Source: Alkalicoccobacillus plakortidis (GTDB taxonomy: Bacteria > Bacillota > Bacilli > Bacillales > Bacillaceae_D). From it: a DNA stretch of 64,000 bases. The DNA lies in contig NZ_JAMQJY010000006.1 of the NCBI RefSeq assembly GCF_023703085.1, positions 77,771-141,770 on the forward strand, read 5' to 3'. Of the stretch, positions 4,684 to 58,558 are shown one piece after another. The position numbers and the translations under genes are program-made. Every line of letters starts with the position of its first letter. Position 1 is the first letter of the stretch. The notes beneath the pieces were generated by a model. It had not been told where the DNA came from. It searched no databases and saw nothing but the letters and a program-made list of their open reading frames with translations.

Positions 4684-5864
4684 TTATGTTCCTTTTGTTG
4701 TATAGAAATCCTTCTTCTCTTGATTAGAAATAAAGAGAATGATCCCTGCACTCCCGGTTATCCCAAGTAAATAAACAACATTTTCCTTCCACTCACTACT
4801 CCATATTGCAAACACAATTGGTCCACTTGCCACTCCTAAAAAACGAATCATCGATAACCATGAGAGTGCTTTATCACGAAGTTCATCTGGCACAACGTGT
4901 AAAAGAGCACTAGTTGAAGCCGGTAGCATAACACCTGCTGCCAATCCGATTAAACAAGCCGAGGTAGCAACATACACAATACTTATGTAACCAAAACTAG
5001 CAATGCCCACAGCTATAAGCAATACAATCATTCCACCCCTAAGAATGTGTTGTAGCTGTTTAAACGAGAGTAATGGTGTTCTGCCATAAAGATAGGACAT
5101 AATAACCAGAATAGCAAGTGGCAAAGAAATGAACAATGAGCGATTTGCTGCGTGACTTATCATCGAGGAAAGCACAAATAACAAGCCATATAATAAAAAC
5201 ATAATCAAAAAGCCAGTAGTTAGGATCGGTAACAAACCCCTCCAATAAAACCTGATTTTCATATATGAATGAGTGGAACCCTTTTCTAATTGATTGGGAA
5301 GTAAGGTGATCGCAGCTACCAGTGCAATCAATGCAATGGCCATATACCATACAAAACCTAGTTGCCAGTAATAAGCAACGATGAATCCACCGAGAACTGG
5401 ACTTAGCGCCTTACTCAATCCATTAATAACCTCTAAAAAACTGAACATCTTACCTTGCTCTGTTTTTTGATACAACTCAGAAGCCAAAATAAACCCCATA
5501 GGTGCCGCTGCTCCAAGCTCCAAGACCTTGTAGAATCCGTCCTATAAGTATGGCTGCATAAGCATAGTCAGGATTATTCGTAAAGCCTGCTAAAGAAGCA
5601 ACTACACAACCCAGCACCAAACCCACTAAGCTAAAAATCACTACGTTCCTTCTACCAATATAAGATGCTAACCAAGCCACTTACAGGAATCATTAAGGCT
5701 CCAGCATAAGAAAACACACTTAACAAAAAGCTTGTCTGTCCCGCGGTTAAATAAAGTTCATCCTGAATAGAAGGCATAATCGGTATAAACAATCCATTTC
5801 CTACTACCATAATAATTGTGAAAGATGCCAGTCCCACTTTGGTTGCTATGACTTCTAGCTTCAT
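4684..5864 (-). CDS. MFS transporter (two frameshifts)
   Basis: Three consecutive minus-strand frames together encode a major facilitator superfamily drug or solute exporter with about twelve membrane segments. The N-terminal part contains LFIPIMPSIQDEL, and the second loop carries ASYIGRRNV, the usual loop 2-3 signature. Removing one T at 5672-5677 (GCTTGG to GCTGG) restores PVSGWLASYIG. Removing one T at 5513-5518 restores QGLGAGAAAPMGF, the expected motif of helix 4-5. The repaired length is about 392 residues. Both breaks share the context seen throughout the window, so a live gene with sequencing errors is more likely than a pseudogene. The substrate is unknown. Its place near yqgB-like genes resembles B. 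subtilis yqgE. Confidence 0.82.
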
Positions 5865-5966
5865 TTATCTCACCTCTTTGATATAGGGTTTGTAAATAGT
5901 AGTCATAATACGCACCCTATCTGCATAGACTTTTAATAACTGTGATTTTATTGAGGAGGACAAGCT

Positions 5967-6332
5967 GTGAAGCGCTTGTTTATTTGTATTGCACTATTCA
6001 TTGTTTTAGCTGGTGTTGTGGCTGATCTACGAACTGGTTCATTACCTGATCAATCAGTAAAGAATTCAACTCGACCAGTACAAACCTCATCAGGACAAAA
6101 AGCGATCGAAACCGAAGTAGTTGAAGAAACAACAACTGAAGAGACCTCTCAGGAAGTCATTGTTGAGCCTGGGCATACAGTATTGTCGGTGATCGAGCAC
6201 CTACACCAAGGTCCCGTTCCTGTTAGCATTCAGCAAATCATTGATGATTTTAAAGAGTTAAATGGCTCACTTGAACCAGATGAAATACAAATAGGCAAAA
6301 CGTATTTGTTTCCGATTTATGAGAAAGAGTGA
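5967..6332 (+). CDS. yqfZ: YqfZ-like exported protein with LysM-like end
   Basis: This 121-residue protein begins with GTG behind a strong GAGGAGGA. Residues 1-20 form a membrane anchor or signal peptide (MKRLFICIALFIVLAGVV). A low-complexity Thr/Glu linker follows. The last 55 residues look like a LysM-type fold (VEPGHTVLSVIEHL ... IQIGKTYLFP). B. subtilis places yqfZ next to ispG, exactly as here, which supports the name. LysM folds bind peptidoglycan, so a wall-associated role is inferred. It is divergent from the MFS gene and about 110 bases upstream of ispG. Confidence 0.68.
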   Translation: MKRLFICIALFIVLAGVVADLRTGSLPDQSVKNSTRPVQTSSGQKAIETEVVEETTTEETSQEVIVEPGHTVLSVIEHLHQGPVPVSIQQIIDDFKELNGSLEPDEIQIGKTYLFPIYEKE

Positions 6333-6439
6333 ATTTCCTTGCCAAATTGAACAGGTCATTGATAAAATGAAGTCGTATCTCTTTAAAGAGACTAGACAAC
6401 TTGTGAACGTTACTTGTTGAATAAAGGAGCGATTGGTCA

Positions 6440-7549
6440 ATGACCGAAATTACTCATCGTACAAAAACCCGTCCCGTTAAGGTCGGCAATTTAACAATTG
6501 GCGGCAATGATGAGGTCGTCATTCAAAGTATGGCAACAACAAAAACGCATGATGTCGAAGCAACAGTTGCTGAGATTAATCGACTTGCGGAAGCAGGATG
6601 TCAGATTGTTCGAGTAGCTTGTCCAGATATGAAAGCTGCTGAAGCGATTAAAGATATTAAAGCTCAAATCTCTATTCCTTTGGTTGTTGATATTCATTTT
6701 GATTATAAGCTGGCATTAAAAGCCATTGAAGGTGGAGCAGACAAAATCCGAATCAACCCAGGTAATATTGGTCGCCGCGAGAAGGTTGAGGCCGTTGTAA
6801 AAGCAGCCAAAGCAAAAGGTATTCCTATTCGTATCGGGGTTAATGCTGGATCACTTGAACGTAAGATCTTAGAGAAATATGGATATCCAACCGCTGATGG
6901 TATGGTCGAAAGTGCTCTACATCACATTAAGATCCTTGAAGACCTTGATTTTCACGATATTATCGTATCGATGAAAGCATCTGATGTTCATTTAGCGATC
7001 GAAGCTTATGAAAAAGCAGCCAAAGCGTTTGACTACCCTCTTCACTTAGGTATTACAGAGTCTGGAACTCTATTTGCCGGAACCGTTAAGAGTGCTGCTG
7101 GACTCGGTGCCATTCTTAATATGGGTATTGGTAACACTTTACGTATTTCATTAAGTGCCGATCCTGTTGAGGAAGTGAAAGTAGCACGTGAGTTGTTAAA
7201 ATCATTTGGTCTTGCAGCAAATGCCGCTACACTGATTTCTTGCCCAACTTGCGGTCGAATTGAGATTGATTTAATTAGTATCGCAAACGAGGTTGAGGAG
7301 TACATCGCAACCATTAAAGCCCCAATCAAAGTTGCGGTGCTTGGATGCGCCGTAAACGGACCTGGTGAAGCTCGTGAAGCAGATATCGGGATTGCCGGAG
7401 CTCGTGGAGAAGGATTACTTTTCCGCCATGGTGAAATTGTGCGGAAGGTCCCTGAAGAAACAATGGTAGAAGAACTCAAAAAAGAGATTGATATCATTGC
7501 TGAAGAACATTATAGAAAACAAGCTGCAGAGCTTGAAGGTAGTGTTTAA
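6440..7549 (+). CDS. ispG: 4-hydroxy-3-methylbut-2-en-1-yl diphosphate synthase
   Basis: IspG (GcpE) performs the penultimate step of the MEP isoprenoid pathway, converting methylerythritol cyclodiphosphate to HMBPP with a [4Fe-4S] cluster. The 369-residue protein has the expected bacterial length. The TIM-barrel part begins [13 protein letters not shown] and contains DIHFDYKLA and [10 protein letters not shown]. The three cluster cysteines are visible in ISCPTCGR (about residue 270) and [10 protein letters not shown] (about residue 302). The start is preceded by AAAGGAG. A strong terminator follows at once. The last enzyme of the pathway, ispH, lies at 17406 in the same window. Confidence 0.98.
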
Positions 7550-7553
7550 AAAG

Positions 7554-7595
7554 AGATCCTCTTGGTCTAGTAACTAGACCAAGGGATCTTTTTTT
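7554..7595 (+). terminator. rho-independent terminator of ispG
   Basis: A long stem (AGATCCTCTTGGTCTAG against CTAGACCAAGGGATCT, loop TAA) is followed by TTTTTTTG, directly after the ispG stop codon. Confidence 0.92.
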
Positions 7596-7627
7596 GATTC
7601 CGCTCCCTGCAAACAATTAATCCAAGG

Positions 7628-8025
7628 TTAAATTACTGTAGAGAAAAACAACGAAGCAGTAATTGAAACAATACCTAAACCAATTGCCCAAGCTTCCGAT
7701 TGTTTTTGAACCGCCTCTTATCGCTACAAAACCAACGATAATACAGCTGCTCCTAAAAGAAGTGGCAGAAAAAATAATGAAAGAATTGATAAAACAAGCG
7801 AGAAGATTCCCATCGCTTTCCCGTTCATCAATTTTTCAACAGATTCCTCTTCCTCTTCATCTTTTATAGCATAAGAAGGATCTTGAGGGCTGGAAATTCC
7901 GCTGCTGATTCTTCGTTATAATGTGCCTCATGACCCATCTTTTCAGTATGGAGAAGTGTTAGTGATTTATCCTCTGGGTCCACTAATCGAATTGGTTCTT
8001 GATTTGGATGTTTATCTAATGCCAT
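7628..8025 (-). CDS. yqfX: YqfX-like small membrane protein (three frameshifts)
   Basis: Three minus-strand frames together give about 132 residues, close to B. subtilis YqfX, which also sits between ispG and yqfW. The N-terminus reads MALDKHPNQEPIRL, followed by an acidic linker (IKDEEEEE) and two C-terminal membrane segments separated by a GFVAIRGGSK turn. Frames are rejoined by adding an A at about 7889-7893 (GCTGG should be GCTTGG), adding a G at about 7743-7747 (GCTGT should be GCTGGT), and removing a T at 7688-7693 (GCTTGG should be GCTGG). All three lie in the window's recurrent error context. The function is unknown; small tandem-helix membrane proteins of this kind have no assigned activity. 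Confidence 0.66.
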
Positions 8026-8100
8026 TATTATCCCTTCCTCTCCGTATGCAGGGAGCACCCTTAGTGTAACCATTAATAAAGAGCTTCACCCTTCACGTTG

Positions 8101-8128
8101 TTGGCATTACTTGCTAAAATGGTACAAT
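8101..8128 (+). promoter_or_regulatory. sigma-A promoter for yqfW
   Basis: TTGGCA (8101-8106) and TACAAT (8123-8128) are separated by 16 bases, 22 bases before the yqfW start codon. Confidence 0.6.
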
Positions 8129-8149
8129 AGCGTTGGAAGGATGATCAAA

Positions 8150-8744
8150 ATGAATAACGTTCGAATTGGATTAGATATTGATGGAACTGTAACAGATCCA
8201 AGCGGTTTTTATTCCCGCATTAAATAAGTCATTTAATAAAGAACTAACACTTGAAGATCTGACTTCATTTGATTTAACAGGTGTCTTAGGCATTAGTCGT
8301 GAAGAGTTTACACAATGGATGAAAGATCATGAAGCAGATATTTATGCTCAGGCAGACCTTGCTTTGCATGCACAAACAGTCATCGAAAAATGGCAACATC
8401 AATTTGAGCTTTTTTACGTCACTGCCAGAGGCTCCTACCTTGAAGAGATCACCAGAAAGTGGTTTAAAGTGAATCAATTGCCATTTCACCATCTTGAGCT
8501 TCTTGGACAGCATAATAAAATTGAAGCCATTAAAAAACATCGCATTCAACTATTTCTAGAAGATAAACATGATAATGCTGTTGACATAGCAACTGAGTGC
8601 TCGATCCCTGTTATTTTGATTGATACACCTTATAATCAAGGAGATGACCCACACGGGGTTATTCGCGTAAAAAACTGGCTAGAAGCCGAACAATGGGTTG
8701 CGCAGTGGTCAGCGAGTATTGAGGGTGATTCAGCGCATGATTAA
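8150..8744 (+). CDS. yqfW: HAD-superfamily nucleotidase-like protein YqfW (one frameshift)
   Basis: The product belongs to the 5'(3')-deoxyribonucleotidase-like HAD phosphatases. The catalytic motif I, GLDIDGTVTD, is at residues 7-16. Motif II is probably FYVTARGS near residue 90, and the acidic motif FLEDKHDNA lies near residue 137. Removing one A at 8198-8203 (CCAAGC should be CCAGC) changes an early stop into TDPAVFIPALNKSF and gives about 197 residues. The gene position between yqfX and zur matches B. subtilis. The exact nucleotide substrate cannot be read from the sequence. The stop overlaps the start of the next small gene. Confidence 0.84.
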
Positions 8745-8895
8745 ATGGAACACACTGTTCAAAAAAAGAACATGTATCTTCTGTCATAAAAAAACACCTT
8801 TCATGAGGAACTACCTGACAGATCAAGGTGACCGAGTAAGGGTTTGCGAAAAATGTCTTGAATATGCTGAAAGGCGAGCAATGAAAAAAGCGTGA
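8737..8895 (+). CDS. small zinc-ribbon protein
   Basis: This 52-residue protein starts at an ATG overlapping the yqfW stop (translational coupling is likely). It carries two cysteine pairs, CIFC near residue 13 and CEKC near residue 38, in a basic background (MIKWNTLFKKRTCIFCHKK), which fits a zinc ribbon. I do not recognise a named family. The gene lies between yqfW and the Zur repressor, but whether it is linked to zinc control is only a guess. Its coding part ends inside the shared terminator. Confidence 0.6.
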   Translation: MIKWNTLFKKRTCIFCHKKTPFMRNYLTDQGDRVRVCEKCLEYAERRAMKKA

Positions 8896-8916
8896 GCAGC
8901 TGCTCACGCTTTTTGT
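8884..8916. terminator. bidirectional terminator between the small zinc-ribbon gene and zur
   Basis: The perfect palindrome GCGTGAGCAGCTGCTCACGC is flanked by A- and T-runs and overlaps both stop codons of the convergent genes. Confidence 0.85.
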
Positions 8917-9344: not shown

Positions 9345-9411
9345 CTGTTGCACACCTTCTTTCTAGCTTAGCTGTTCCTTATATTATAGAGGAATTAATT
9401 CTCTGAGTCAT

Positions 9412-10291
9412 CTACAACTGCCCTATAGTAGTGTCCGGACGTGGTTTTCTTAACCATCTCACTTTTTTATTTCGTCCAAAGACAATAGATAGTAGAAGCA
9501 GAACCACTGATATCATTACAATTGTTCCACCTGGAGCCAAGTCAAGCTGAAATGCTGCGATTAATCCACCTATTACCGCTATTTCTCCTAGTATAACCGA
9601 GTAGATAAAAAGCTGCTTAAAGCCTTTTGCAAACCGCATAGCACTCGCAACAGGTAATGTCATTAAAGCAGAAACCAACAATATTCCTACCACTCTCATG
9701 GAAGCAGCAATAACTAATGCGACCAAAACAACAAATACCATATTGACTAATTTTCTGTTCACTCCAGAAATAACCGCTTGCTCCTCATCAAAAGAGAGAA
9801 AAAACAACTCTTTATAAAACAAAATAAGAACAATCATCACTAAAACTGTGATGCTGCTAATGGTTATAAAATCAGACCTGGTTACGGCAATAACACTTCC
9901 AAACAGATAATTAAATAAATCATTATTAAATCCATTTGCGAGTGAGATAAAAATGACACCAATACCTATTCCAGCAGAAAGAATGATTGGAATGGCAATC
10001 TCTTTGTAAAATGTATACACACGTCGTAACTGTTCAATTAATAATGAACCGCCTACTGAAAAAAACATCCCCATGTATAAAGGGTTTAGTCCAAGCAAAA
10101 AAACCGACATATTTACCAAGTAATAAACTAAATGCAATACCTGATAAAGTGATATGAGATAGGGCATCTGCAATTAGAGACATTCTTCTGACCACTAAAA
10201 ACACTCCAAGAATCGGAGCCAATAACCCGATCATCATTCCTGTAAATAGCGCATATTGCAGGAAATCAAATCTTAAAAAGGTTTCAATCAT
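9412..10291 (-). CDS. znuB: zinc ABC transporter permease (one frameshift)
   Basis: This is the membrane permease of an ABC-3 family metal importer. It begins MIETFLRFDFLQYALFTGMM, has about eight membrane segments and ends in a basic tail. The typical permease sequence LIADALSHITLSGIAF is at about residue 38. Removing one T at 10091-10096 (GCTTGG should be GCTGG) joins the 85-residue start with the rest and gives GFFAGLNPLYMG and about 292 residues. The start codon overlaps the znuC stop by four bases. Zinc as substrate is inferred from the neighbouring zur and the candidate Zur operator; manganese importers have the same fold. Confidence 0.88.
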
Positions 10292-16073: not shown

Positions 16074-16677
16074 ATGCAACGAATATTCGGACCTCCTGCT
16101 TGTCCAACACCCATACAACCGCTTGCAAGAAGCCCCTTTATGTTTGGTCCTGGTCCAGGTCCAGGAATGGCTCCACAAGCGGCCTTCTTTGGACAGGGCT
16201 CACAAATGGCCCCTGGTCTGATGCAAGGAGCTGGAGCCGGGAGTAGAGTGGGATTACTCGCAAGGCTTTTTGGTGGTGGAGGGGCAAGTAGCGCATTACA
16301 AGCTTCAGCCTTTCCAACTGCAACAGCTAGCGGGGGGAGCTTTTTAAGTGGAATTAATTTCACTTCGTTGTTGCAAAATGCTCAAAGAATAATGGGAATC
16401 ACTCAACAGGTCATGCCGATGGTTCAACAGTATGGTCCCATCATTCGTAATGCTCCAACGCTTTGGAAAATCATGCGTAGTCAACCCTCAGCTGATCCAG
16501 AAGAATCCGTTGTGGAAAATATTCAGCCCACATCACAACAAGAGTCAAGTCCAAGCTATTTCATCTGATTCACCTGAACTCGGCTCTTTAGAGAGTCCTA
16601 AGCAATTTCAGCTAACAGCTATAACACCTATAGCAACACCTGCTAGTGGCCCTCCTGCCCCTAAACTTTATGTTTAA
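16074..16677 (+). CDS. yqfQ: YqfQ/VrrA family protein (one frameshift)
   Basis: The product has a Gly/Pro/Ala-rich N-terminus with a short repeat (GPGPGPG at about residues 24-30), a Gly-rich segment (RLFGGGGASSA) and a helical middle part (LLQNAQRIMGITQQVMPM). This matches YqfQ of B. subtilis and the VrrA protein of the B. cereus group. In the present frame it ends after 164 residues. Removing one A at 16551-16556 (CCAAGC should be CCAGC) joins it to a frame ending PAPKLYV, giving about 200 residues and the usual family ending. Its position next to cshB and ispH agrees. The function is unknown. A terminator follows. Confidence 0.78.
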
Positions 16678-16809: not shown

Positions 16810-17297
16810 ATGTTTAAAGTCGGTGACCACGTTGTTTATCCTTACCATGGGGCTTGGAACAATTAGAGACATTGAAGAAAGACGTTTTAGGTGAAACCCA
16901 CTCTTATTTTGTTCTACATTTCCCACTAGTAGATGTGAAATTAATGCTTCCTGAAAGCAAAATTGACAATTCTGGTCTACGTAAAGTGATTGAACAAGAC
17001 GAATTGGACAATGTAATTGAAGCATTAAAAAACGGACCAGAGCTTCCCCCTTCTACTAGCCATTTCTCAAAGGAAACGGAAAACCTCCTGAAAAGCGGAA
17101 GTATTTTTGATGCAGCTCATCTTATCTCTTCTCTTTCAAAGAAACAAGCTGGAAGATCAAACGGTCTTCATATACAAGATCGTAATCATCTTCAGAAAGC
17201 AAAACAGATGATTGCAAGTGAACTTGTTCTCGTAAATGATATGTCCGAAGAACAGGCATATGAGTTTATTGATAGCAATTTGCTTGAATTGTCATAA
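16810..17297 (+). CDS. CarD-type transcription regulator (two frameshifts)
   Basis: The product is a CarD/CdnL-like protein that would bind RNA polymerase beta through its N-terminal Tudor-like domain and stabilise open promoter complexes. It starts MFKVGDHVVYPYHG behind GGAGG. Removing one T at 16852-16857 (GCTTGG should be GCTGG) gives the family motif HGAGTIRDIE. Adding two A near 16880 then connects to DVLGETHSYFVLHFPLVDVKLMLP. The repaired protein is about 162 residues. The helical C-terminal part ends NDMSEEQAYEFIDS, typical of these proteins (B. subtilis YdeB is a homologue). The second break is not in the recurrent context and is less certain. Confidence 0.8.
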
Positions 17298-22606: not shown

Positions 22607-24417
22607 CTAGGAAAGCTCTCTCTTTAGCTGCTGTATTTCAATTAATAATTTTGCTTGAGTCAGTGGATCCTGTTCAAGCTTGGATTCAACTTCTTTCTTC
22701 TCTATCAATACCCTTTTTGGGTAGTTTTCAATCTGCTTGACATAATCCTCTAGTTCTTCTTCAGAACAATCTGCATTAACCGTCATCGTAGAAAGCTCTG
22801 AAGCTAAGCGAACAAGTGAGTGATCCTCAATACTTTGAAGAAACTCTCTAGGGTTTGCCTCATTGCCTTTTCCATAATAAGCGAGTAAATACGCAAATAG
22901 TGCTTGATGTTCATCAACATTAAAAGCGGCTCCAAGGCGTTCCTGTATCCGCCAAGCAAGATCTTCATCATTCATCATCAAAACTAATAAAATCCGTTCA
23001 GCATTTTGGAATGCAGGCAAAAGTCGCTTCTGTCTAAATTGTCGAGTTGTGCTAACTGCTTTCTTTTCCAATGTTTCATTAGCAGTATACGTTTTCTTTG
23101 ATTCCTTATACATTCGGTATTGCTCTTGTTTAAGAACCTCCAACGATAAAGAAAATTCATCAGCAAGCTGCCTGAGATAATGGTCACGTTCAATTGCTCG
23201 CGGAAGTTTAGCAAGCTCTTGTAATACTTCTTCAATATAGACCATTCTTTCTCCTTCATCTTGGAGATTTTTCTCCTGACGAAGATATCTCATCTTAAAG
23301 GCCATAACCGTTTGACTTGCCCCTATAACATCAGATTGGAATCGTTCTGGTCCGTATGTTCTAATGTAGTCATCGGGATCAAGTCCTTCCGGCATATGGG
23401 CTATACTAACCATACAGCCAGCCTGCTCTAGTACACTTGCTGATCGGAAGGCAGCGCTTTGCCCAGCTTGGTCAGAGTCATAGCAGATAAGTACCGTCTC
23501 AGCATTACGACGCAGCCGTTTTGCGTGTTCCTCGGTTAGAGCCGTGCCTAACGTTGCTACGCCGTTTTCAACACCTGCTCCCCAAGCAGCAACAACATCC
23601 GCTGCTCCTTCAAACAATACGGCAACATTCGACTTTCGAATGGCCGATTTAGCCAAGTGTAAACCGTACAAGAGCTTATTTTTTTGAAAAATAGGCGTTT
23701 CAGGGCTGTTTAAGTATTTCGGTTTACCTTCTCCAACAATTCTTCCGCTGAATCCAACAACTCTACCTTGAACATCCCAGATCGGGAACATTAATCTACT
23801 TCGAAACCGATCATACACCCCTTCAGATTTCTCTCTTTCCGCCAATAGGCCAGCCTCAACCATTGTAGTTGATTGAAATTCTTTTTTAAGCAAAAATGTG
23901 GAAAGGTTCTCCAGCCTACTGGAGCAAATCCAACTTGGAAGTGATTCAACTGTTCATTTGTGAATCCACGACTGTCCGCATATTCACGACCGGCTTTTCC
24001 TTCGTCAGTTAGCGCAAAAACACGCTGATAAAAGGTTGCGGCTGCATCGTGTCCTTTAAAAAGGTCACGAAAGCGCTCTGTCGATTGCGACTCGTTAGTT
24101 TGATACACTTCTTCAGGTAGTGAGATGCTTCCTTTATTCGCTAGATATTTAACCGAGTCTGTAAACGAAAATCCTTCATGCTCCCTCAGAAAGGTAAATA
24201 CATTGCCTCCTGCACCACAGCCAAAACAGTGATAGACCTGCTTTTCTGGTGAGACTGAAAAAGAGGGTGATTTCTCTCCGTGGAACGGACACAGACCTGT
24301 ATACTGTTTACCTTGCTTTTTAAGTTGTACATATTGGCTAATGACTTCCACAATATCACTTGATTTACGAACTTCTTCTATCTTTTCCTCAGGAATTCGG
24401 GAACTCATATACATCAC
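22607..24417 (-). CDS. dnaG: DNA primase (one frameshift)
   Basis: DnaG makes RNA primers for replication and is essential. The N-terminal zinc finger is visible (CPFHGEKSPSF and CFGCGAGGN), then the RNA polymerase (TOPRIM) domain with VLFEGAADVVAAW and CYDSDQAGQSAA, and a C-terminal helicase-binding part. The frame breaks at 23911-23915: a single base is missing in GGCTGGAGAAC. Adding it gives GW- or GL-ENLSTFLLKKEF and about 603 residues, the normal length. A break in an essential gene supports a sequencing error. The exact start is unclear (24417 or 24408). Confidence 0.94.
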
Positions 24418-26810: not shown

Positions 26811-28890
26811 TTAAAACACAATCTTTTGAAACAGAGCAAAGGCTTCGATTTCGGCAGCCAGCTGCTTCATCAGTTGAAGACGATTTTCTTTTACTTCTTT
26901 CTGATCTGACATAACCATAATATGTTCAAAATATTGATGAACAAGTGGCACACTCTCTTCTAATGCTTTGTAAGCCTCCGTTACTTGTCCTTGATCCTTA
27001 TATTGTTTCAATGTTGATGATAAGGTTTTGTAACGATCATATAATAAACGCTCTTCATCTTTTTCAAACAAGGATGGGTTTATCTCAACAGTCGCTTCTG
27101 CTTTTTTGGCGATATTTGTGACACGGCTTAACGCTTCCACCACTTTCTTGAAGTTCTCGTGCTTACGAGCTTCTGAAAGTAACGCCGCCTTTGAAAACGT
27201 CCACGTAATCGTCGCCTGTTCATCTGTTAAAACAGCATCAACAACATCGTACTCTATGCCTTTATCAGAAAGAGCATATTTCATTCTTAACGTGAAAAAT
27301 TCGTTCAACTGCTGAAGCAATTCTTCTTTATTTTCTATCTTCAATCCATGATCTTCTGCCGTTTCCACTGCAAGATTAAGTAGAGTATCTAGCTGGATGT
27401 CCAATTGTTTCTCTACAGCCATTTGTACTAGTCCTAACGCTTGACGTCTTAGGGCATAAGGGTCCTGAGAACCGGTTGGGATTAAACCAATTGCAAAACA
27501 CGATACAATCGTATCAAGTTTGTCCGCCATACTTATAACCAAACCAATCTTAGTCTCAGGCAGACTGTCACCCGCAAAGCGTGGATAATAATGCTCTCTA
27601 ATAGCTGTTGCAACTTCTGCTTTTTCTCCCAAATAGAGCGCATATTCTTCACCCATTAAACCTTGAAGTTCAGGAAATTCTCCGACCATTTGAGAAACAA
27701 GATCGAATTTACTAATAGAAGCTGCACGTTGTACAAATTCTTGATTGCTCTGAGAAAGGTCCAGATGAGTGGAAAGTTTGGCAGCAACATCCTTGATTCG
27801 TTTTACTTTATCTCCAAGGGAACCTAATTCTTCGTGATACACGATGGCATCAAGCTGTCTAACAGCTGCATCAATATCCATCTTTTGATCTTCTTTATAG
27901 AAAAACGCTGAATCCGAAAAGCGAGCGCGTAACACTTTTTCATTTCCTCTAGCAACGTTTTCTATGTGACTAGAATCGCCATTACGTACAGTTATAAAGT
28001 GAGGCAACAGCTTGCCTTCCATATTCTCTACTGGGAAATAACGCTGATGTTCCTTCATTGTTGTTAATAAAACGTCTTTTGGTAAGCTAAGAAATTCTTC
28101 TTCAAATTTCCCGCTTAAAGCAGTTGGCCACTCCACTAAGTTATTTACCTCTTCAAGCAATTCTTCATTTACAGGAATAACCCATCCAGCCTGCTCAGCT
28201 AGCTCTTCTAGCTGCAAGCGAATCGTTTGTTTTCGTTCCTCAGCATCAACTAACACAAACTGCTTTCGCATAAGCTCTTTGTACTCATTTGGATTCGTTA
28301 TTTTCACGTCTTCACCTAAAAAACGATGTCCGCGACTACTGTCACCTGAATGAATGGACGTGATCGAAAATGGAATCACTTCTTTGCCGTACAATGCTAC
28401 TAACCACTGAATTGGACGAGCAAAACGAAGACTGTAATCGTGCCATCTCATGTTTTTAGGGAAATGCATCGACGTAATTAAATCCTTTAATGCAGGCAGC
28501 AACTCAAGCGTTTTTTTCCCTTCTTGGAAAGTCTTCGCGAACACATACTCCGTTCCCTTAACTTCACTTGTAAATAACTCATCAGGTGAGACACCCTGAC
28601 CACGAGCAAAGCCCTGAGCCGCCTTAGACCAGCTACCATCCTCTGCTACTGCAATTTTTTTAGCTTGGTCCACGTGATTCGCTTTCCAGATTTGGTTGAC
28701 TGTCTTCTAAGTCTCGCACTAATATAGCCAAACGTCTTGGCGTCGAGTAGCCTTCAACTGCCACGTACTCCAGTCGCTGCTCTTTTAACCACTCTTCAAC
28801 CAGTTGTTTTAACTGTTTAATGGATGAAGTGACAAATCGAGCCGGAAGCTCCTCCAGTCCAATCTCTAGTAAAAAATCATGCTTACTCAT
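26811..28890 (-). CDS. glyS: glycine-tRNA ligase beta subunit (one frameshift)
   Basis: GlyS is the beta chain of the alpha2-beta2 bacterial glycyl-tRNA synthetase and binds tRNA-Gly. It starts [20 protein letters not shown], the family hallmark, and has an HD-like and anticodon-binding C-terminal part. Removing one A in CCAAGC at 28663-28668 (on the plus strand GCTTGG should be GCTGG) restores [15 protein letters not shown] and about 692 residues. The gene overlaps the end of glyQ by eight bases, so the subunits are coupled. The gene is essential, so the break is best read as a sequence error. Confidence 0.95.
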
Positions 28891-31217: not shown

Positions 31218-32134
31218 TTAGTATTCATCCGAGCGAAAACCAAAGTCTCGTAGCTGAGCTGTTTATTCCGCCAATCTTTCTCGACTTTGACCCAAAGTTC
31301 TAGAAATACCTTTGAACCAAGTAAGGCTTCAATATCGGCTCTAGCAAGTTTTCCTACTTCTTTTAGAAGTGATCCCTGTTTACCAATAACAATTCCTTTT
31401 TGTGAAGATCGCTCTACCACAATCGTCGCCTGAATATCGACCATATCTTTGTGTTCTCGCTTTTTCATCCGTTCGATGCCCACGGCAATTGAATGTGGGA
31501 TCTCCTCATGTGTTAACTGAAGGACCTTCTCTCGAATTAATTCAGCAACAATAAATCGTTCCGGGTGATCTGTTACTTGATCAGCAGGATAATACTGCGG
31601 TCCTTCTTCCAGTTTATCTTTGATTTGATCAAGAAGGACTGGCACGTTATTTCCGCTTAATGCAGAGATCGGGATAATTTCCTTGAACTCATGTTTTTGT
31701 CTATATGTATCAATTAACGCAAACAGCTCATCTGGATGCACCAAGTCAATTTTATTAATAATCAAAAATGCAGGAGTAGATGTTTCTTTTAAGCGATTAA
31801 TAATGTATTGTTCACCTGGTCCAAATGCCTCATTCGCTTCAACCAAATAGAGAATGATATCGACTTCTTTTAATGTGTCTTTTGCTACCTTCATCATAAA
31901 ATCACCAAGCTTATGCTTCGGTTTATGAATACCTGGTGTATCAATAAAAACAATCTGTGCATCATTATCAGTAAATACACCTTGGATTTTATTACGTGTT
32001 GTTTGTGGTTTGTCCGACATGATCGCAACTTTTTGACCAATTACTCGATTTAATAACGTTGATTTACCGACATTTGGTCGGCCAATCAAACTGACAAAAC
32101 CTGATTTATGCTCATTCTCGTGTTGATTACTCAT
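31218..32134 (-). CDS. era: GTPase Era (one frameshift near the end)
   Basis: Era is a ribosome-assembly GTPase that binds the 3' end of 16S rRNA. The GTPase motifs are GRPNVGKST (G1, about residue 18), [10 protein letters not shown] (G3) and NKIDLV (G4). The KH domain includes [15 protein letters not shown] (about residue 245). As sequenced, the tail is read in another frame to 31163. Adding one A in the AAA run near 31262 gives [13 protein letters not shown] and a stop at 31218-31220, about 305 residues, the normal Era ending. The start ATG overlaps the end of cdd by eight bases. Confidence 0.94.
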
Positions 32135-36639: not shown

Positions 36640-37829
36640 TCAATCTCCTTGGATAATCGGTTTTTCCTTCGTAATATCTTCTATAACTTGATAGTGTATC
36701 GTTAGCTTCACTTTACCATTGTCAATGGATTCGTGCAAAAGTTTTCCGCTTTTGATCTCAGCATCTAAAGGGATCTGATTCATTAGTTCTTGTTCAGCTT
36801 GTTTCATTCCGATTTGCTTAGCCTCATCCTCCGTATACGTACGTTTATAGGAGTGGGTTTCATGAATTTCTCTATGTTTTAGCGCAACAGGAACTTCCAG
36901 CCAAATACATTTAAGGTTTTAACCTCTTCAAATTCTTGAACATTCTGGTATTTCGGCTTGCCAAAACCCCAAATCGGCACGTTAAAGTCATTAAAAGAAA
37001 CAAAATAACGCGATGAGTGCTTGCCAGTTAATGTGGTAAACGAAGCCTCTAATGGAACGGTTACATTAGAAGTGTACCATATTTCTCCTAATACTTGTCC
37101 TTTTGTTGGCACGGTTTGTTGACTTTTTTTATTTGTGCCAATTATACCTGAGACTAAAAGATCTCCTGGCTGAACAAAGTCATTCACTTTCACTTCTGCA
37201 TGACCATGTTCCACAAACATTTTGTAAATAACTGCTTTTTTCTTAGCTACTAAATGGCGTGGACTTAATAACTCAGCTTCTTCAGGCAGTTGATGTTCAA
37301 CAATTTCAAATTCATAAATGGTGCCTTTTTGCCTGACTCCAATCCAGGTAGCGTCAGTTACTCTTTGTTGCATTTCCTGTTGAATTTTTTCCACAGGAGG
37401 AAGTGTCATTTGAAATGTGCCACGTTTGATCCCAAGTTCTAATGCAGCATTCTCTACTTCATTAGCTATTTTAGGTGACCCTCCTTTTACCTGTATACCC
37501 CAGACCATCTGAGAACATACCAGTATCAGAATGAAGAAGCTTACTACACCTAAGGTAAAACCAGTACGTTTTTTCATTTTTGCTATTAAAAATGGTCCAC
37601 CTCTTCTTTTTTTAAAGAACATTTTGCATTCAAATTTTTTTAATAAAGACCTCATCATAGGAACATCTTCAAGCGCCAAATAAAAACCTAATCGATTTTC
37701 ATCCATTTTTCTAATTGACCAAATAGCTAGTCCTTTATTTAAGCATGCATTTAACAGACGTTCCGTATAAACGCCTGTTATTTCAACAAATACGAATCCT
37801 TTAATATGCTTCATCCATTGATTTATCAT
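36640..37829 (-). CDS. yqfD: sporulation protein YqfD (one frameshift)
   Basis: YqfD is a conserved membrane protein of the sporulation sigma-E regulon. It begins MINQWMKHIKGFVFVEITG and has one membrane segment (about residues 92-112) before a large external domain. As sequenced the frame stops at 36879. Adding one T at 36897-36901 (GCTGG should be GCTTGG) continues as FGLEVPVALKHREIHE and runs to a stop at 36640-36642, about 396 residues. The tail is helical and conserved (KRTYTEDEAKQIGMKQAEQ). yqfC lies directly upstream, so the two form a small sporulation operon reaching phoH. Confidence 0.9.
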
Positions 37830-40414: not shown

Positions 40415-41781
40415 TTATTCCTCCTTATGATTTTGGTCAGGCTTCACTTCACGAACCACAATGCGTGATCCAGAAGTGTAGACAACCTTTAGTAAGCTAC
40501 CTTGTTCAATATATCCACCCTCTGATACAACGTCAAGACGTTCTTCACCAAACTGAGCCGAACCACCTGGTCTCAGTATAGTCAAAGCCCTGCCATGCAT
40601 AGAGATTAGCTCACTTTGTGTTTCATTTGAAATATATCCTTCTTCGGTTGTTGTTGCTGCATCTAAAACCATCTTCTTCCAAGGACCTCGGTTACCAAGA
40701 TACCTAAACAAGGTAACAGCCGCTACGATTGATACAGCTAATGCTACCCCAATTGCTAAGAGCATAGTAGCCGTCGAGAAGGATGCTAGGAACATGCCAC
40801 CAATCATTGCAGCTACACCAAGCACCCCAAAAACCCCAAAACCTGGAACAAAAATCTCAATCACAATGAGAACGACACCAACAGCAAAGAGAATAATGGC
40901 TTCCCATCCTGCAAAACAGCAAATAAATGGCCGAAGAAAAAGAGCCCAAGAGCTGAAAGTCCTACCATTCCTGGTATACCAAATCCCGGAGTATATAACT
41001 CAAGCACTAATCCAAGACTCCCTAGTGTCAAAAGAATAGGAATTACAATTGGATTTGTTACAAATCGAGCAATTTTTTCAGCAAAGCTTACCTCTGAATA
41101 CTCGATAGCTGCACCTTCTAATCCAACATCATCCAAGGCAAGCAATTCTTCAATTGAACTTGCTGTTCCTTCTGAGTAGCCAACTTCAATTGCATCTGCT
41201 GCACCTAAAGTTAAGAATGTACCTTCTGGAGAGTTATACTTAGGAAGATCATGATTCGTGCTAGCCATGGCTAATGCAAAAGCAGGATTACGACCATTTT
41301 TTTCTGCGGCATTTTTCATTTGATTTAACCAGTACGATTGTGCCTTATCCTCAGCCGCATTCCCTGAACCATCAATCACACCAGCTGCACCCATACTACC
41401 TTGAGGGTGCATGACAATACGATCTGCATTCAAAGCAATATACGCGCCAGCTGAGATTGCATCCGGGTTTACGTAAGCAGTAATCTCTGTTTCTGTCTGA
41501 TTTAATAGTTGAGCAATATTTCCTGCAGCATCAACAGCACCACCTGGGGTATCAATATCAAGGATAATATGGTCAGCCCCATTACTTTCAGCATCAGAGA
41601 GAGCACGCTCAAGAAATTTTTCAAGCCCTCGTTCAACCGTCTGCTCTATCGGAATCACAAAAACAGTTGATTGATCATCTTCTGTATCTGCCACCATAAA
41701 GAGTTGAACAGGAACAAGTAAAAAACCAAGGAAAATAGCAGCAAGTGACAAGGACAATATTGCCTTACTACTCCAATTCAC
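40415..41781 (-). CDS. NfeD protein, long form with ClpP-like domain (one frameshift)
   Basis: This YqeZ-type protein has a signal peptide or anchor, a ClpP-like serine protease domain (residues about 40-240, with LDIDTPGGAVDAA and the likely nucleophile in NPDAISAGAYIALNAD), about five membrane segments and a cytosolic OB-fold end (LRPGGSAQFGEERLDVV). Adding one G at 40916-40920 (GCTGT should be GCTGGT) joins the two frames as HLFAGFAGWEAIILF, giving about 455 residues. The start is a GTG at 41781 behind a GGGGGGAG. It precedes floA and belongs to the same membrane-domain operon. Confidence 0.9.
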
Positions 41782-45962: not shown

Positions 45963-46716
45963 TCACCTCATTAATTCAAAATGGTACGAAATTGCCGCTA
46001 ACACGGCTAGCGACGCTGTTTCTGTACGTAGGATTCTTGGTCCAAGACCACATGCTAACGCACCTGCTTGTTCAAACATTACAATCTCTTCTTCACTAAA
46101 TCCACCTTCAGGCCCAATTAAAATCAACAAAGAATCCCCTGGATCTAACCTTTGTAATTGGTCAACTAAAACAGATCTCTCACCTACTTTAGCTTGCTCT
46201 TCAGCGAGCACAAGACACGCTGAATACTCACTAAATCGCTCAATGACTTGTTTAGTAGAAGCACTCGGATAAATAACAGGAATTGATAAGCGGTAAGACT
46301 GCTCAGCCGCTTCTTTTGCAATTTTCTCCAGTCGCTCAATCTTTTTTGCGCTCTTTTTCGCATCCCATTTCACAATTGAACGAGCTGCAGAAAAAGGCAA
46401 AAATCGAGATGCGCCGAGTTCTGTCCCTTTTTGAATGATCAGATCCAAGCTTATCCCCTTTTGGTAGACCTTGAGCGATAGTAACCGATATTGGAAGCTC
46501 TGTCTGAGTAAGTAGCTCCTCAGATATAGAGGCTGTTACCTCAGTTGTTGCAACTGAATCCAACGAGCATACAACGACTCGCTGCTCTTGGTTAATGCAA
46601 ACAATCGTATGACCAGGTTGCATACGCATCACCTTGCTAATATGCGCTGCATCATCCCCAATTATCGTTACTTGCTTGTCCGTCATCTGTTCATTTGATA
46701 CAAAATAACGTTGCAT
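45963..46716 (-). CDS. rsmE: 16S rRNA (uracil(1498)-N3)-methyltransferase RsmE (one frameshift)
   Basis: RsmE methylates U1498 of 16S rRNA. The N-terminal PUA-like domain starts MQRYFVSNEQMTD, and the C-terminal SPOUT knot contains LILIGPEGGFSEEE and GLGPRILRTETA. Removing one T at 46445-46450 (GCTTGG should be GCTGG) joins the frames as KGDKLDLIIQKGTELG and gives about 250 residues. Start at 46716 overlaps the prmA stop. Confidence 0.93.
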
Positions 46717-47702: not shown

Positions 47703-48820
47703 TTACTCGCCTTTAAAAGCTCGTTTCACTTTCGCAAAAAATGAATCCTGCTCTTCAATCGTATGACTACCGTTTGTTTCAGCAAACTCTCTCATGATGT
47801 CTTTTTCTTTTTCACTAAGGTTTTTAGGTGTAACAACACGTACAATCACATGTTGATCTCCTTGCCCACGACCATGGACATTTGGAACACCTTTGCCACG
47901 AAGTCTGAAGTTTGTACCTGTTTGTGTTCCTGCAGGTATTTTTAATTTAATTTTTCCATTTAAAGTTGGCACTTCAATTTCATCACCTAAAGCTACCTGT
48001 GTAAATGTTAATGGCATTTCGCAATGAATGTCTTCACCATCTCGCTCAAAGAACTCATGTGATTTCACGTTGAAGACAACATATAGATCGCCTGCCGGTC
48101 CGCCGTTTGCTCCTGCTTCCCCTTGACCAGACACACGCATTTGTTGACCATGATCGATACAGCTGGAACTTTCACACTGATCTTCTTGCGTTTGCGTACT
48201 TTCCCTTTACCGGCACATGTTGAACATTTGTCCTTTATCATCTTACCTGTACCTTCACAGTGATTACACACTCTGCGGTTTACAACTCGACCAAATGGAG
48301 TGTTTTGTTCAACATTTAATTGACCAGATCCTCCACAGTGTGAACATGTCTCAGGTTTTGTTCCAGGCTTAGCACCGGAACCAGAACATGTATTACAATT
48401 TTCTTCACGAGGAATTTCAATTTCAGTGTCTTTACCAAACACTGCCTCTTTAAATTCTAATGTCATTGTATATTGTAAGTCCGCTCCTTGACGTGGACCA
48501 TTCGGGTTACGTCGGCCACCACCGCCACCAAAGAACATATCAAAAATATCATTAAATCCACCAAAATCTCCACCTGCTCCACCGCCGCCAAAGCCTTGGT
48601 TAGGATCAGTATGTCCAAATTGATCATATTGAGATTTCTTCTGTGGGTCACTTAATATATCATACGCTTCTTTTACTTCTTTAAATTTCGCTTCAGCATC
48701 GTCAGCTTTGTTCACGTCTGGGTGATACGTACGTGCTAGCTTTCTATAGGCTTTTTTAACCTCATCAACAGATGCGTTTTGGTCTACCCCGAGTACCTCA
48801 TAGTAATCTCGTTTACTCAC
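47703..48820 (-). CDS. dnaJ: chaperone DnaJ (one frameshift)
   Basis: DnaJ stimulates the DnaK ATPase. It has the J domain with HPDVNK (HPD at about residue 33), a Gly-rich region ([16 protein letters not shown]), four zinc-finger repeats ([32 protein letters not shown]) and a C-terminal substrate domain. Adding one G at 48159-48163 (GCTGT should be GCTGGT) gives [20 protein letters not shown] and about 372 residues. A GTG start at 48820 fits the GGGAGTGG better than the GTG nine bases earlier. It is the last heat-shock gene of the operon. Confidence 0.95.
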
Positions 48821-48977: not shown

Positions 48978-50826
<1,849 letters not shown>

Positions 50827-52586: not shown

Positions 52587-52596
52587 TTCTATTGAT

Positions 52597-52625: not shown

Positions 52626-52649
52626 TATGAATGCATCTAGAAAAAGAAC

Positions 52650-53816: not shown

Positions 53817-53881
53817 AAAGCCCTACCTCCTTATCCCTTTTAACATGGTAAAAAGCCGGCAGAAGCCAAGCCTTTTCCCGT

Positions 53882-55702
53882 TTATTCATCCATACGCAAG
53901 ACTGCCATAAAGGCCTCTTGAGGCACTTCTACATTCCCGACAGATTTCATTCGTTTTTTACCTTCTTTTTGTTTCTCTAAAAGCTTACGTTTACGTGAAA
54001 TATCTCCACCATAACATTTTGCCAAAACGTTTTTACGCATCGCTTTGATTGTAGAACGAGCGATAATCTTTTGCCCAATACTAGCTTGGATCGGCACTTC
54101 AAACTGTTGTCTTGGTATTAATTCTTTTAATTTTTCAACGATGATTTTCCCACGTTCATAGGCTGAATCACGATGCACAATAACAGATAAGGCATCTACC
54201 GTTTCACCATTTAACAGAATATCCATCTTCACAAGCTTAGACGCTTTGTAACCAATTAATTCATAATCAAATGAGGCATATCCTTTTGTATTTGATTTTA
54301 ATTGGTCAAAGAAATCATACACAATTTCAGATAGTGGAATCTCGTAGACAATTTGAACACGGTTTGCATCTAGGTACTGCATATCAATAAAGTTTCCACG
54401 TTTCTTTTGACACAGCTCCATCACAGAACCAACGTAATCATTAGGAACCATAACACTAGCACGAACGTATGGCTCTTCTACCTGATCAACTTTCTGAGCA
54501 TCAGGCATGTTGGATGGATTATCAATCTGCAGGGAATCACCATTCGTTAAAGAAACGGTATAAATAACACTTGGCGCCGTTGTAATTAATGTAATGCCAA
54601 ATTCACGCTCAATGCGTTCCTGAATAATTTCCATGTGCAGAAGTCCTAAGAACCCACAACGGAAACCAAAACCAAGCGCTTGAGATGTTTCTGGCTCGTA
54701 TTGAAGGGACGCATCATTAAGCTCAAGACGCTCTAACGCTTCACGTAAATCATTGTATTCATTTGTATCAACAGGATACAACCCGCAATATACCATCGGG
54801 TTCATTTTACGATAACCAGGTAATGGCTCTCCTGTAGGGTTATCCGCGCTTGTAATCGTATCCCCTACTCGAGTGTCACCAACATTTTTGATGGCAGCTG
54901 TCAAAAAGCCCACGTCACCAACAGTTAGTTCATCCTGTTTAGTTGCTTTAGGTGTGAACACCCCAATTTCACTTACTTCAAATTCTTTCCCCGTTGCCAT
55001 CATAAGGATACGATCGCCTGGTTTGATTGTTCCTTCAACAACTCGAATATACGCAATAACTCCCCGATAGGCATCATACAACGAATCAAAGATCAGCGCT
55101 TTAAATGGGGCATTAGGATCGCCAGTTGGTGCAGGAACTTTTTCGACTACCTGTTCTAGAATTTCTTCAATACCGATTCCGTTTTTTGCAGAAGCATGTA
55201 CAGCCTCAGACGTATCAAGGCCAATGACATCTTCTACCTCTTGTTTCACGCGGTCCGGCTCAGCACTTGGTAAATCAATTTTATTAATAACAGGTAGAAT
55301 CTCAAGATCATTATCCAACGCAAGATACACATTGGCTAAAGTTTGCGCTTCAATACCCTGAGCCGCATCAACAATAAGAAGGGCTCCCTCACAGGCTGCA
55401 AGGCTCCGAGATACTTCGTATGTAAAATCGACGTGTCCCGGCGTATCAATTAAATGAAAGATATACTCTACTCCATCTTTGGCCTTATATTTCAATTGAA
55501 CAGCATTTAACTTAATAGTAATCCCACGTTCCCGTTCCAAATCCATCGCATCAAGTGTCTGCTCTTTCATCTCACGGTGAGTTAGAGCTCCAGTTAATTC
55601 TAAGATTCGATCGGCAAGCGTAGACTTCCCGTGGTCAATATGGGCAATAATCGAGAAGTTGCGTATTCTCGATCGCCTTTCGATCCGTTGTTCATTGTTC
55701 AT
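53882..55702 (-). CDS. lepA: elongation factor 4 (LepA)
   Basis: LepA is a ribosome-associated GTPase that can back-translocate ribosomes. The 606-residue protein has the G domain with [13 protein letters not shown] (about residue 19), [16 protein letters not shown] and [12 protein letters not shown], then EF-G-like domains and the LepA-specific C-terminal part ending [18 protein letters not shown]. The ATG at 55702 follows the motif GGAGTGATTG and fits the usual start ([21 protein letters not shown]). yqxA lies about 100 bases upstream. Confidence 0.97.
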
Positions 55703-55809
55703 TCTACAATCACTCCTACAGCTTACGTACAAATACACTATCCTCTATTATAGCAAGCTGCCGGTAGACGTTCAATACAGAGAAGTGAAATGTTTTTGCA
55801 CAATATGGT

Positions 55810-56160
55810 TTAAAGTTGGGTTTCTGATTCTTTCTCTCTCCCATTTAGCCCTTCAATTGCATTCACCAGAGCTGAAAGAACATTCCTGGTTAGTTCTTCT
55901 AAACCTGATGCACTGGCAATCGCGGCCTCCGAGAAAAAGTTTTCATGCCGCCCGTTTTCGCTCGTATGTTGCTTTTCAGTAAGCTCCAATACATTTGGTT
56001 GTAGCTGTGTAATTGATTCTTTTTTCACGAACTCTTCCTTCGATAAGGGTGCAGGAGCAGAGATTCCAAGCTGTTCATTCATATATTGAATGCCTCCCAT
56101 TGCCCCAAGTAACAAAGCAATGATAAGTAGTCCAGTTTGTATATACCATCTCATTTTCAT
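55810..56160 (-). CDS. yqxA: DUF3679 family protein YqxA
   Basis: This 116-residue protein starts at 56160 (MKMRWYIQTG) in a TGATG overlap with the spoIIP stop. A membrane segment (LLIIALLLGAMGGIQYM) is followed by a hydrophilic tail (NEQLGISAPAPLSKEEF). In B. subtilis yqxA is also between spoIIP and lepA. The longer frame to 56190 has no separate ribosome binding site. The function is not known. Confidence 0.83.
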   Translation of the reverse strand: MKMRWYIQTGLLIIALLLGAMGGIQYMNEQLGISAPAPLSKEEFVKKESITQLQPNVLELTEKQHTSENGRHENFFSEAAIASASGLEELTRNVLSALVNAIEGLNGREKESETQL

Positions 56161-57344
56161 CACGAACCCTCTCCCTCTTGTAAACTCCAATAATAGTCAG
56201 AAATCACATCAGCCAACGCTTCTGCCGCACGATATGTTTCCTCGATTGTATTTTCAACTCCTCCAACCTCAACTAACATCATTTCAGGAGATAAATCCTG
56301 ATTAAATACTCCGTTAGTTCTTGGTCCTTCGGCAATCTTTACTCCACGACTTAACCCTGGATACTTTTTCTCAAGTAATTCATGCATATCCTCGGCCATC
56401 TTTGCATTCATGTCGGAGTTTGGATTTTTCCCCCAACTACAAACCACAATCTTGCATACTCTACACCATTAATCGTAGCGGCTGTGTTATCTCTCCCTGC
56501 AGAGTCACGATGTAAGTCAAAAAACAATTCAAATTCTTCCGGGCCTGCTACCGCTTCTTCTAAAAAGATTCGTGCGGCCTCATACGAACGATTATAATTC
56601 CATCCTTTTTGATGCAGGCTTTCTTGTACACTGCGTTCTTCTTTCACTGTACCTATTCCACGTTTTTCGAGTTCTTGTTTTAGCTTTTCACTTGTCTGAG
56701 TAATGTTCACTTTACTATTAAACGCTTCTTTTGAGGTTAATTCCGGCAAAAAGGATTCTGTGTCATGTGTGTTAATTAAGTAAACGACATTTTTATCTCC
56801 TGTGTTTTGCTCGGATTCTGCTTGCTTTCGCTTGGCTTCCTCTGCTTCTTTTTCAAGCTGAATCACTTTTTCGAGACTTTCTTCTTTCGCATCGCGCTCA
56901 GCAAGCTGCACATCAATAGGAGGACTAGATTCATGAGATAACGTTGTATAATCCGTCCCCTCACCTGCAATATAAATTTTCGAATCAAAGAATGTGAATC
57001 CAGGAAGTTCTCTTCCTAAAAAGCTTCGCGGATCTTCTGGATTCAAACTTGTAATCAGCTGAAAAGCAAAAGGAGCCAGCTTGGATGTTTTTCCGTCCTT
57101 CAGGCAGTGGTTCTGTAAAATGGCTATTCTCCATGCCCATAACTTGCAAAAGGTGCTCTCCAGCTAAACCAACTGACCATGCATGGATATTTTCTGAGGA
57201 TAGTCCTCGTCCTTGGCCAAAAGATGTTAAGACACTTATAAGAATAAACAGACTGATTACACCAACCACGGATGTAATGATGATCTGTTTGATGCTTGTC
57301 CGGTTCACTTTTATTGTCATGCCTCGAAATCCTGCTGGTTTCAT
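56160..57344 (-). CDS. spoIIP: stage II sporulation protein P (two frameshifts)
   Basis: SpoIIP is a peptidoglycan hydrolase of the SpoIIDMP complex that drives engulfment of the forespore. It has a membrane anchor (IIITSVVGVISLFILISVLT), an Asp-rich linker and a C-terminal hydrolase domain with LINTHDTESFLP (about residue 195), YNRSYEAARIFL and FFDLHRDSAGR (about 270). Removing one A at 57079-57084 (CCAAGC should be CCAGC) restores NIQLAPFAFQLITSLNPEDP. Adding one A near 56425-56429 restores GGKNPNSDMNAKMAED. The repaired protein has about 394 residues. The ATG at 57344 follows AGGAGTGG. Confidence 0.92.
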
Positions 57345-57411
57345 TTGACCACTCCTACATCCAATACCAACCTACTGCCATCCTATTCAAGATGAGGACA
57401 GGCTAGAACAC

Positions 57412-57452
57412 AAAAAAACTGCCCCTAAGTCACAAAAGGAACAGTTTTTTTC
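57412..57452 (-). terminator. terminator of gpr
   Basis: On the minus strand AAACTGTTCC pairs with GGGGCAGTTT and is followed by TTTTTTTG, directly past the repaired gpr stop at 57454. Confidence 0.7.
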
Positions 57453-57453
57453 A

Positions 57454-58558
57454 TCAGCGTGTATAAGCACCAGTATTCATTTGATCAACTTGATTGTGAA
57501 GAGCCGCATTTAGACCACCAAGCCAAAACATGAGCCATATCCTCAATAAATACATCAATCTCTTTTGGAGTAACCATTAAATTATGTCCAATTGGCGAAA
57601 GTACTTCTGAAATTAACTGACGTTTTTCTTGATCGGGTAAATTCCCTACAATACCAAGTACTGTCTCTCGTTTTTTCTCATCAGGCATATCCTCGTCTGT
57701 TAACGTTCTTTTTTCACCAAAAGTCATGCCGGCTGGTGCAAGCGACCTTGACGGAGCGTTTCCTGTTTTCATCTCTCTTCCGAAGTGTTTTAAAACAAAA
57801 TCAATCGTATCACTTGTTATCGTCACAGCATCAACTACGGTCGGAATACCTATTGCAATAACCGGAATACCAAGTGTTTCTTTGCTGATTTCTTTGCGTT
57901 TGTTTCCAACTCCACTGCCTGGGTGGATTCCGGTATCTGTAATTTGAATGGTTGTATTAACACGTTCCACTGACCTAGATGCCAATGCGTCAATGACAAC
58001 TAAAAAGTCTGGTTTTACCTTATCAATCACCCCAAACAAAATATCACTCGTTTCAATTCCAGTTAAGCCCATAACACCGGGTGTTAATGCACTCACTGAA
58101 CGGAATCCATCTTGAACTTCCTCAGGAGCCAATTCAAACAAATGCCTTGTCACTAAAATTTCCTCGACAGCGATTGGGCCTAAAGCGTCTGGAGTGACAT
58201 TCCAGTTGCCGAGTCCAATAACCAAGCAGCTATCTGTCTCGTTTACACCCGACTCTTTTAAAAATTGATGAAAGGATGAGGCAAATACTTTTTCGAGTTT
58301 AGCTTGAAGATCTGTGTCTTTGGCACGAATGCCTTGAGATTCAAATGTTAAATAATTGCCTGGTTTTTTACCAATCTTCGGTGCCGCTTCTTCATCAATG
58401 ATGACCCTTGTTACTTTTATCCCGTCTATATCATCTGATTTGATATCAATGCCAGTAGCGGGTTTAGCTTCCGGTTGCTTTTCTTGGTATATTTCGTGAG
58501 CCTCCACAGCTAAGTCTGTCCGCACCTCAAAAGCTTCCATGTTCAAGTGATTGTCCAT
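57454..58558 (-). CDS. gpr: germination protease Gpr (one frameshift near the end)
   Basis: Gpr is made as a zymogen in the forespore and degrades small acid-soluble proteins during germination. The repaired protein has about 367 residues. It begins [20 protein letters not shown] with the propeptide, and has [17 protein letters not shown] and [15 protein letters not shown]. The ATG at 58558 follows GGAGG. As sequenced it ends early at 57485. Removing one T at 57518-57523 (GCTTGG should be GCTGG) restores the normal ending [17 protein letters not shown]. It is divergent from rpsT. Confidence 0.93.

Follow-up and report, generated by a model that had tools for sequence, protein, structure and literature searches.

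In the deposited genome of Alkalicoccobacillus plakortidis (GCF_023703085.1; 4.37 Mb in nine contigs), genes are interrupted by frame breaks that centre on a single short motif, and these breaks are almost certainly sequencing errors in the consensus and not real gene damage. The stretch analysed here (the window) consists of 64,000 bases, the last 64 kb of contig C6 (NZ_JAMQJY010000006.1; 141,770 bases), and positions in it are counted from its first base. A preliminary description of the window had listed eighteen frameshifts at GCTGG or GCTTGG (CCAGC or CCAAGC on the other strand), and had ascribed them to a context-specific base-calling error, perhaps set off by a DNA modification. The best explanation as a whole, to which we give a probability of roughly 85%, combines a misread CCAGC, cytosine methylation of this word as the likely trigger, and a tandem pair of cytosine-5 (C5) methyltransferases as the candidate writer of the mark.

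Frame Breaks Centre on One Motif

Frame breaks can be called by comparison with close relatives. One 743-residue protein, YqfF-like, has its nearest named relatives in Alkalicoccobacillus murimartini, porphyridii and gibsonii at 84 to 86% identity, which places the genome in or near that genus. The proteins of four genomes of the same genus (G001 to G004; the genome under study is G000) were aligned to the whole of contig C6 with frame shifts allowed, using 123 to 141 proteins per relative. Each relative yields 45 to 57 frame events in 34 to 40 thousand codons, as against 14, 7, 6 and 13 events in 40 to 42 thousand codons in four control runs (of 12 possible) in which one relative was compared with another. 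The events on the contig form 75 clusters. Only clusters with the backing of three or more relatives were retained, leaving 42 breaks, all with a net shift that is consistent among the relatives; 33 clusters were dropped (26 with one relative and 7 with two), 14 of them inside the window. The window holds 23 of the kept breaks, each backed by all four relatives. All eighteen frameshifts of the preliminary description are among them and are thus real in the sequence, but its list was incomplete: five further breaks lie near 1525, 16876, 31261, 56428 and 61503, of which only that at 31261 fits the motif, giving a motif fit in 19 of the 23. Two of the listed sites, at 7889 and 16551, lie in poorly conserved stretches with weak DNA alignment, although the net shift is still the same among the relatives.

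The link between breaks and motif is clear in the statistics of the whole contig. When classed by a mechanical rule (a form of the motif within 10 bases of the break), the 42 breaks comprise 25 at CCAAGC, 4 at CCAGC, 6 at CAGC, 1 at AAGC and 6 with none of these forms; the same classes account for 1.1%, 1.6%, 10.9%, 14.0% and 72.4% of 20,000 random coding positions. An unsupervised 6-mer scan of the breaks ranks CCAAGC (that is, GCTTGG) first, with a binomial p of 1.6e-39 at a background of 0.99%.

A reference-free scan points to the same word. A codon score trained on long reading frames was used to seek changes of the best frame across each 6-mer in 742 kb (17% of the genome), pooled from stretches of seven of the nine contigs. 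An extra-base switch is found at 78 of 247 confident CCAAGC sites and a switch in the opposite direction at 2. This extra-base rate exceeds that of every other 6-mer with 25 or more confident sites, the rate over all sites being 1.7 to 2.5%. Three subsets of the sample agree (16/49, 23/62 and 39/136), and an initial scan of 342 kb had found 39/111. Samples of the relatives contain no CCAAGC extra-base switch (0/101 in G003, 0/44 in G001, 0/39 in G002 and 0/27 in G004, or 0/211 in total) and, among all four, two switches in the opposite direction.

The breaks do centre on the motif as first described, but the true word affected is CCAGC, and CCAAGC is a product of the error. In the 742 kb, CCAGC is the most depleted of the 512 five-mers, with 711 occurrences against 1101 expected from the relatives (ratio 0.65), and its 15 one-letter neighbours have ratios of 0.83 to 1.18. 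CCAAGC is over-represented (528 seen, 392 expected), and in a sample of 322 kb it holds the top 6-mer z-score of 5.2 jointly with ATAAAA. Among radical private substitutions at conserved codons, CAAGC is present in 12 of 121 (p = 6.9e-5, before any correction for the many 5-mers tested). The depletion of CCAGC, the excess of CCAAGC and the CAAGC substitutions together indicate that the error acts on CCAGC, which is misread in three ways: an A is added (giving CCAAGC), a C is lost, or a C is read as A. A tally of conserved CCAGC sites (6 of 20 kept here; for relatives, 16 of 22, 16 of 27 and 16 of 30) gives a hint of substitutions, being weak with only 20 conserved sites and with alignment gaps that fell outside the word.

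The depletion also varies with the flanking bases. Seen and expected counts are 65 and 166 for CCCAGC, 96 and 222 for CCAGCC, 50 and 116 for CCAGCG, and 267 and 320 for CCAGCA, a graded preference for a C before the word and a C or G after it. A longer or bipartite motif was considered from the flanks of broken CCAAGC, set against other CCAAGC or intact CCAGC, and from the depletion of CCAGC, all of which show graded preferences only. With no further letter fixed in the flanks, no longer motif is claimed.

Precedent and Candidate Writer

How such an error could arise can be pictured in a few steps. At the break sites the living genome would read CCAGC (GCTGG on the other strand), and the base caller would often misread the C-A step of this word. 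The misreading would probably be triggered by cytosine methylation of CCAGC/GCTGG, for which a nanopore base caller may have been untrained, and the likely writer is an adjacent pair of C5 methyltransferases, one for each strand of the asymmetric target. Modification of CCAGC very probably triggers the errors; we infer it by analogy with a precedent in Listeria and from a cassette with two methyltransferases in this genome.

The precedent is Listeria monocytogenes R20-0026 (ST1081), in which nanopore errors occur at GCTGG/CCAGC (Chiou et al. 2023, PMC10687267). Amplifying the DNA of that strain reduced its mismatches from 5670 to 16; in the text of the article available to us, the mechanism is unclear to its authors and no enzyme is named. 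The present case resembles R20-0026 in its five-letter motif, in the many sites affected and in being confined to one lineage of the set. Similar errors are known at other motifs. R10.4 reads corrected the errors of five Listeria strains (PMC11218467), and strain-specific, methylation-induced base-calling errors have been described in 6-methyladenine (6mA) contexts such as GAAGAC (PMC12016153); with the cases in these two articles ours would share a short methylated motif, strain specificity and an error beside the modified base. Neither GCTGG nor CCAGC appears in the main text of PMC12016153, and in the literature searched only PMC10687267 connects GCTGG with nanopore sequencing and methylation. 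The preliminary description was probably right about a modification trigger at the motif but not in calling it unreported, as nanopore errors at GCTGG/CCAGC were already in print. With both the phenomenon and the motif published, what is new here is a further genus and a candidate writer.

Five methyltransferase families were searched for in the genome. PF01555 and PF02086 have no match, PF07669 has matches below the cut-off only, and PF02384 has one match of 39 bits (cut-off 20.4), which does not set the genome apart because all four relatives have one as well, at 34 to 40 bits. The fifth family, the C5 methyltransferases, has four members in the genome, as against a single one in G001; G002, G003 and G004 lack them. 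Two of the four stand in tandem in a restriction-modification cassette on contig C1 (C1:2587875-2598031), beside an rlmH-family gene. The two genes are adjacent and intact, coding for 388 and 414 residues with no internal stop, and are followed on the same strand by genes for proteins of 232, 494 and 602 residues. The first of these has no family match. The 494-residue protein is putatively McrB-like, with AAA matches below the curated cut-offs, 155.5 bits for the PADLOC candidate family PDC-M26A and a P-loop seen by eye, while the 602-residue protein is McrC-like, with DUF2357 and PDDEXK_7 over the cut-off. On the other side of the tandem pair lie an HNH endonuclease gene and the rlmH-family gene, the neighbourhood of rlmH being a known insertion place of mobile islands.

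Judged by gene plan, the cassette is similar to known systems with two C5 enzymes. LlaJI of Lactococcus lactis has two 5-methylcytosine (5mC) methyltransferases together with McrB-like and nuclease subunits, and its target is the asymmetric GACGC (PMC1459862). Both systems have two 5mC enzymes and a PD-(D/E)XK partner in one orientation, together with a McrB-like nucleoside triphosphatase (NTPase), which in the cassette is putative. The same article describes BsuMI and LlaI as having restriction modules of three open reading frames, and in this respect the plan of the cassette is closer to them than to LlaJI. Other differences from LlaJI include the target, which for the cassette is proposed to be the likewise asymmetric CCAGC; the putative NTPase, which has 494 residues as against 585 in LlaJI (and 337 to 343 in LlaI and BsuMI); and the adjoining HNH gene. 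No Lactococcus record is found among the 12 of 237 NTPase matches listed or among the 10 nuclease matches listed, and the BsuMI gene names were not found in the literature searched.

The pair recurs as a unit: among the 15 loci compared, seven have homologues of both tandem enzymes side by side (p275D, G254, G336, G142, G366, G273 and G099), and McrBC-like genes adjoin the pair in G336 and G142. On the L. lactis plasmid p275D (NZ_CP016702.1), the adjacent homologues are 65.8% and 56.6% identical to the tandem pair and lie next to a PLD-type endonuclease gene, not a McrBC-like module; the record gives no specificity. Of 398 genomes of the class scanned, 12 carry a relative of the first tandem enzyme at an E of 1e-60 or less, G000 being one of them. 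If CCAGC is modified, the tandem pair is a reasonably probable writer, and the chances are about even that this pair, in its LlaJI/BsuMI-like cassette, writes 5mC at CCAGC/GCTGG, a mark that the authors of the Listeria study linked to no particular enzyme.

The genome G336 contains a relative of the cassette that lacks only the HNH gene, with both methyltransferases and the three restriction genes 48 to 62% identical. Its ratio of CCAAGC to CCAGC is raised (0.53), yet it has 0/11 frame switches.

Weighing the Alternatives

The alternative that survives best, though unlikely, is that CCAGC is modified by another methyltransferase. The remaining two C5 genes of the genome are both found beside phage genes, in C1:15432-19376 (gene C1:16932) and C1:1646216-1649731 (gene C1:1647716), where one adjoins a terminase small subunit gene and the other recT. 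Each of them might modify CCAGC on one strand, but the second is a frame of 224 residues whose match is limited to the first half of the family, and LlaJI is built with two C5 enzymes for its asymmetric target (PMC1459862).

A base-calling error that arises from the sequence of CCAGC itself, with no DNA modification, is improbable. In its favour, the dependence of the depletion on the flanks, with CCAGCA far less affected than CCAGCC or CCAGCG, is as in a pore-context effect. Against this, the exact five letters alone stand out from all of their one-letter neighbours, and amplification removed nearly all mismatches of the GCTGG strain of Listeria (PMC10687267).

True mutations, whether from genuine gene decay or because CCAGC is a mutational hot spot, are very improbable even though the breaks are present in the deposited sequence. 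Identity to the relatives stands at 0.793 over the 30 codons that precede a break and at 0.804 over the 30 that follow it, values so alike that they give no sign of decay. Both glyS and dnaG, which are essential in related bacteria, are broken here, yet frames past the breaks are as conserved as before them, which bears out the original argument that mutation is unlikely where essential genes are hit. The relatives, for their part, have no such CCAAGC frame switches. Programmed ribosomal frameshifting at GCTTGG, as a single short motif and a mostly uniform direction of shift might suggest, can be dismissed, since the motif is found in both gene orientations (8 CCAAGC-sense and 17 GCTTGG-sense among the 25 contig breaks, 30 and 48 in the frame scan) and in several codon phases, since added-base and lost-base types are both present, and since the same word also carries radical substitutions that leave the frame intact.

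A context-specific base-calling error, the explanation first put forward for the eighteen sites, is supported by the link between breaks and motif, independence of orientation, intact frames downstream of the breaks, the like signal in stretches pooled from seven of nine contigs, absence from the four relatives, and in-frame substitutions. Several points nevertheless weigh against our fuller reading of a methylated CCAGC with a tandem writer. The evidence is drawn from the deposited consensus. Six of the 42 breaks have none of the motif forms, and by plain ratio CCAAGC ranks below the top six 6-mers in enrichment, most of them A+T-rich. The broken CCAAGC sites on contig C6 lean to one strand (21 plus and 4 minus, with 78 plus and 45 minus for intact CCAGC; Fisher p 0.06), which the model does not predict. 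In Listeria R20-0026 mismatches were counted, unlike here, where indels and substitutions are seen through gene frames and in another genus. As for the writer, the search covered five methyltransferase families, and the phage-side C5 enzymes are alternatives to the tandem pair. Lastly, four carriers of close relatives of the pair have no CCAAGC extra-base switches (0/51, 0/11, 0/16 and 0/16); the sequencing technology of these carriers is not known, so this absence neither supports nor excludes a link between enzyme and error.

Break Sites in the Window

All twelve sites listed as GCTTGG do read GCTTGG/CCAAGC, each from the very base at which it had been placed, and the three sites given as GCTGG (7889, 23911 and 36897) and the three at GCTGT (7743, 40916 and 48159) read as described. 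The coordinates below are given with no strand assigned. As to the gene names proposed earlier, dnaK, dnaG, glyS, dnaJ, rsmE, yqfD, gpr, carD, yqfQ and nfeD are borne out by family matches; the spoIIP piece and the genes named znuB and MFS match their families below the cut-offs only, and the one yqfW piece tried in the family search has no match over the cut-off.

Breaks at CCAAGC or GCTTGG are found twice in a putative MFS transporter gene (5513..5518 and 5672..5677), in the genes labelled "yqfX" (7688..7693) and "yqfW" (8198..8203; name unconfirmed) in the preliminary description, in a gene for a ZnuB-like metal ABC permease (10091..10096) and in the poorly conserved stretch of yqfQ (16551..16556). 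Further along the window they occur in carD (16852..16857), glyS (28663..28668; the piece searched begins at profile position 72), rsmE (46445..46450), dnaK (49936..49941), spoIIP (57079..57084) and gpr, the germination protease gene (57518..57523). The form given is GCTTGG for carD, glyS and spoIIP and CCAAGC for all the others. Breaks at or adjoining CCAGC lie in the poorly conserved part of "yqfX" (7885..7893), in dnaG (23908..23915) and in yqfD (36890..36900). The base-loss type is represented by ACAGC/GCTGT in "yqfX" (7743..7747), GCTGT in nfeD (40914..40919), CAGCTGT in dnaJ (48157..48162) and, as an addition to the earlier list, CAGC near the end of era (31256..31266).

Where the pieces of a broken gene were searched singly, they abut or slightly overlap along their profiles: 1-319 and 320-624 for DnaK, 1-180 and 173-414 for DnaG, 1-241 and 232-353 for DnaJ, and 1-92 and 92-251 for RsmE.

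The other four additions are off the motif. They comprise a T run (1519..1531), a short A-rich run in carD (16870..16882), a G/A run (56422..56434) and a G run in comEC (61497..61509). The single-base-run breaks, near 1525, 56428 and 61503, are compatible with nanopore sequencing, the presumed platform. The two breaks in carD fall within about 25 bases (16852-16882), and only the first is at the motif.

Implications

The 42 breaks on contig C6 were found in 122,093 aligned coding bases, which, extrapolated to the genome, would amount to false frame breaks on the order of 1,300. With so many, annotation, completeness estimates and claims of pseudogenes for this genome are unreliable; its completeness estimate is 96.9, as against 99 to 100 in 18 of 19 relatives listed. 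An affected assembly can be recognised, and the motif read, from the consensus alone. The analysis also puts forward a specific candidate for the enzyme behind a mark observed in a different genus. If the tandem pair is indeed the writer, frame breaks in a consensus would suffice to read a methylation specificity and to match it with an enzyme without the reads.

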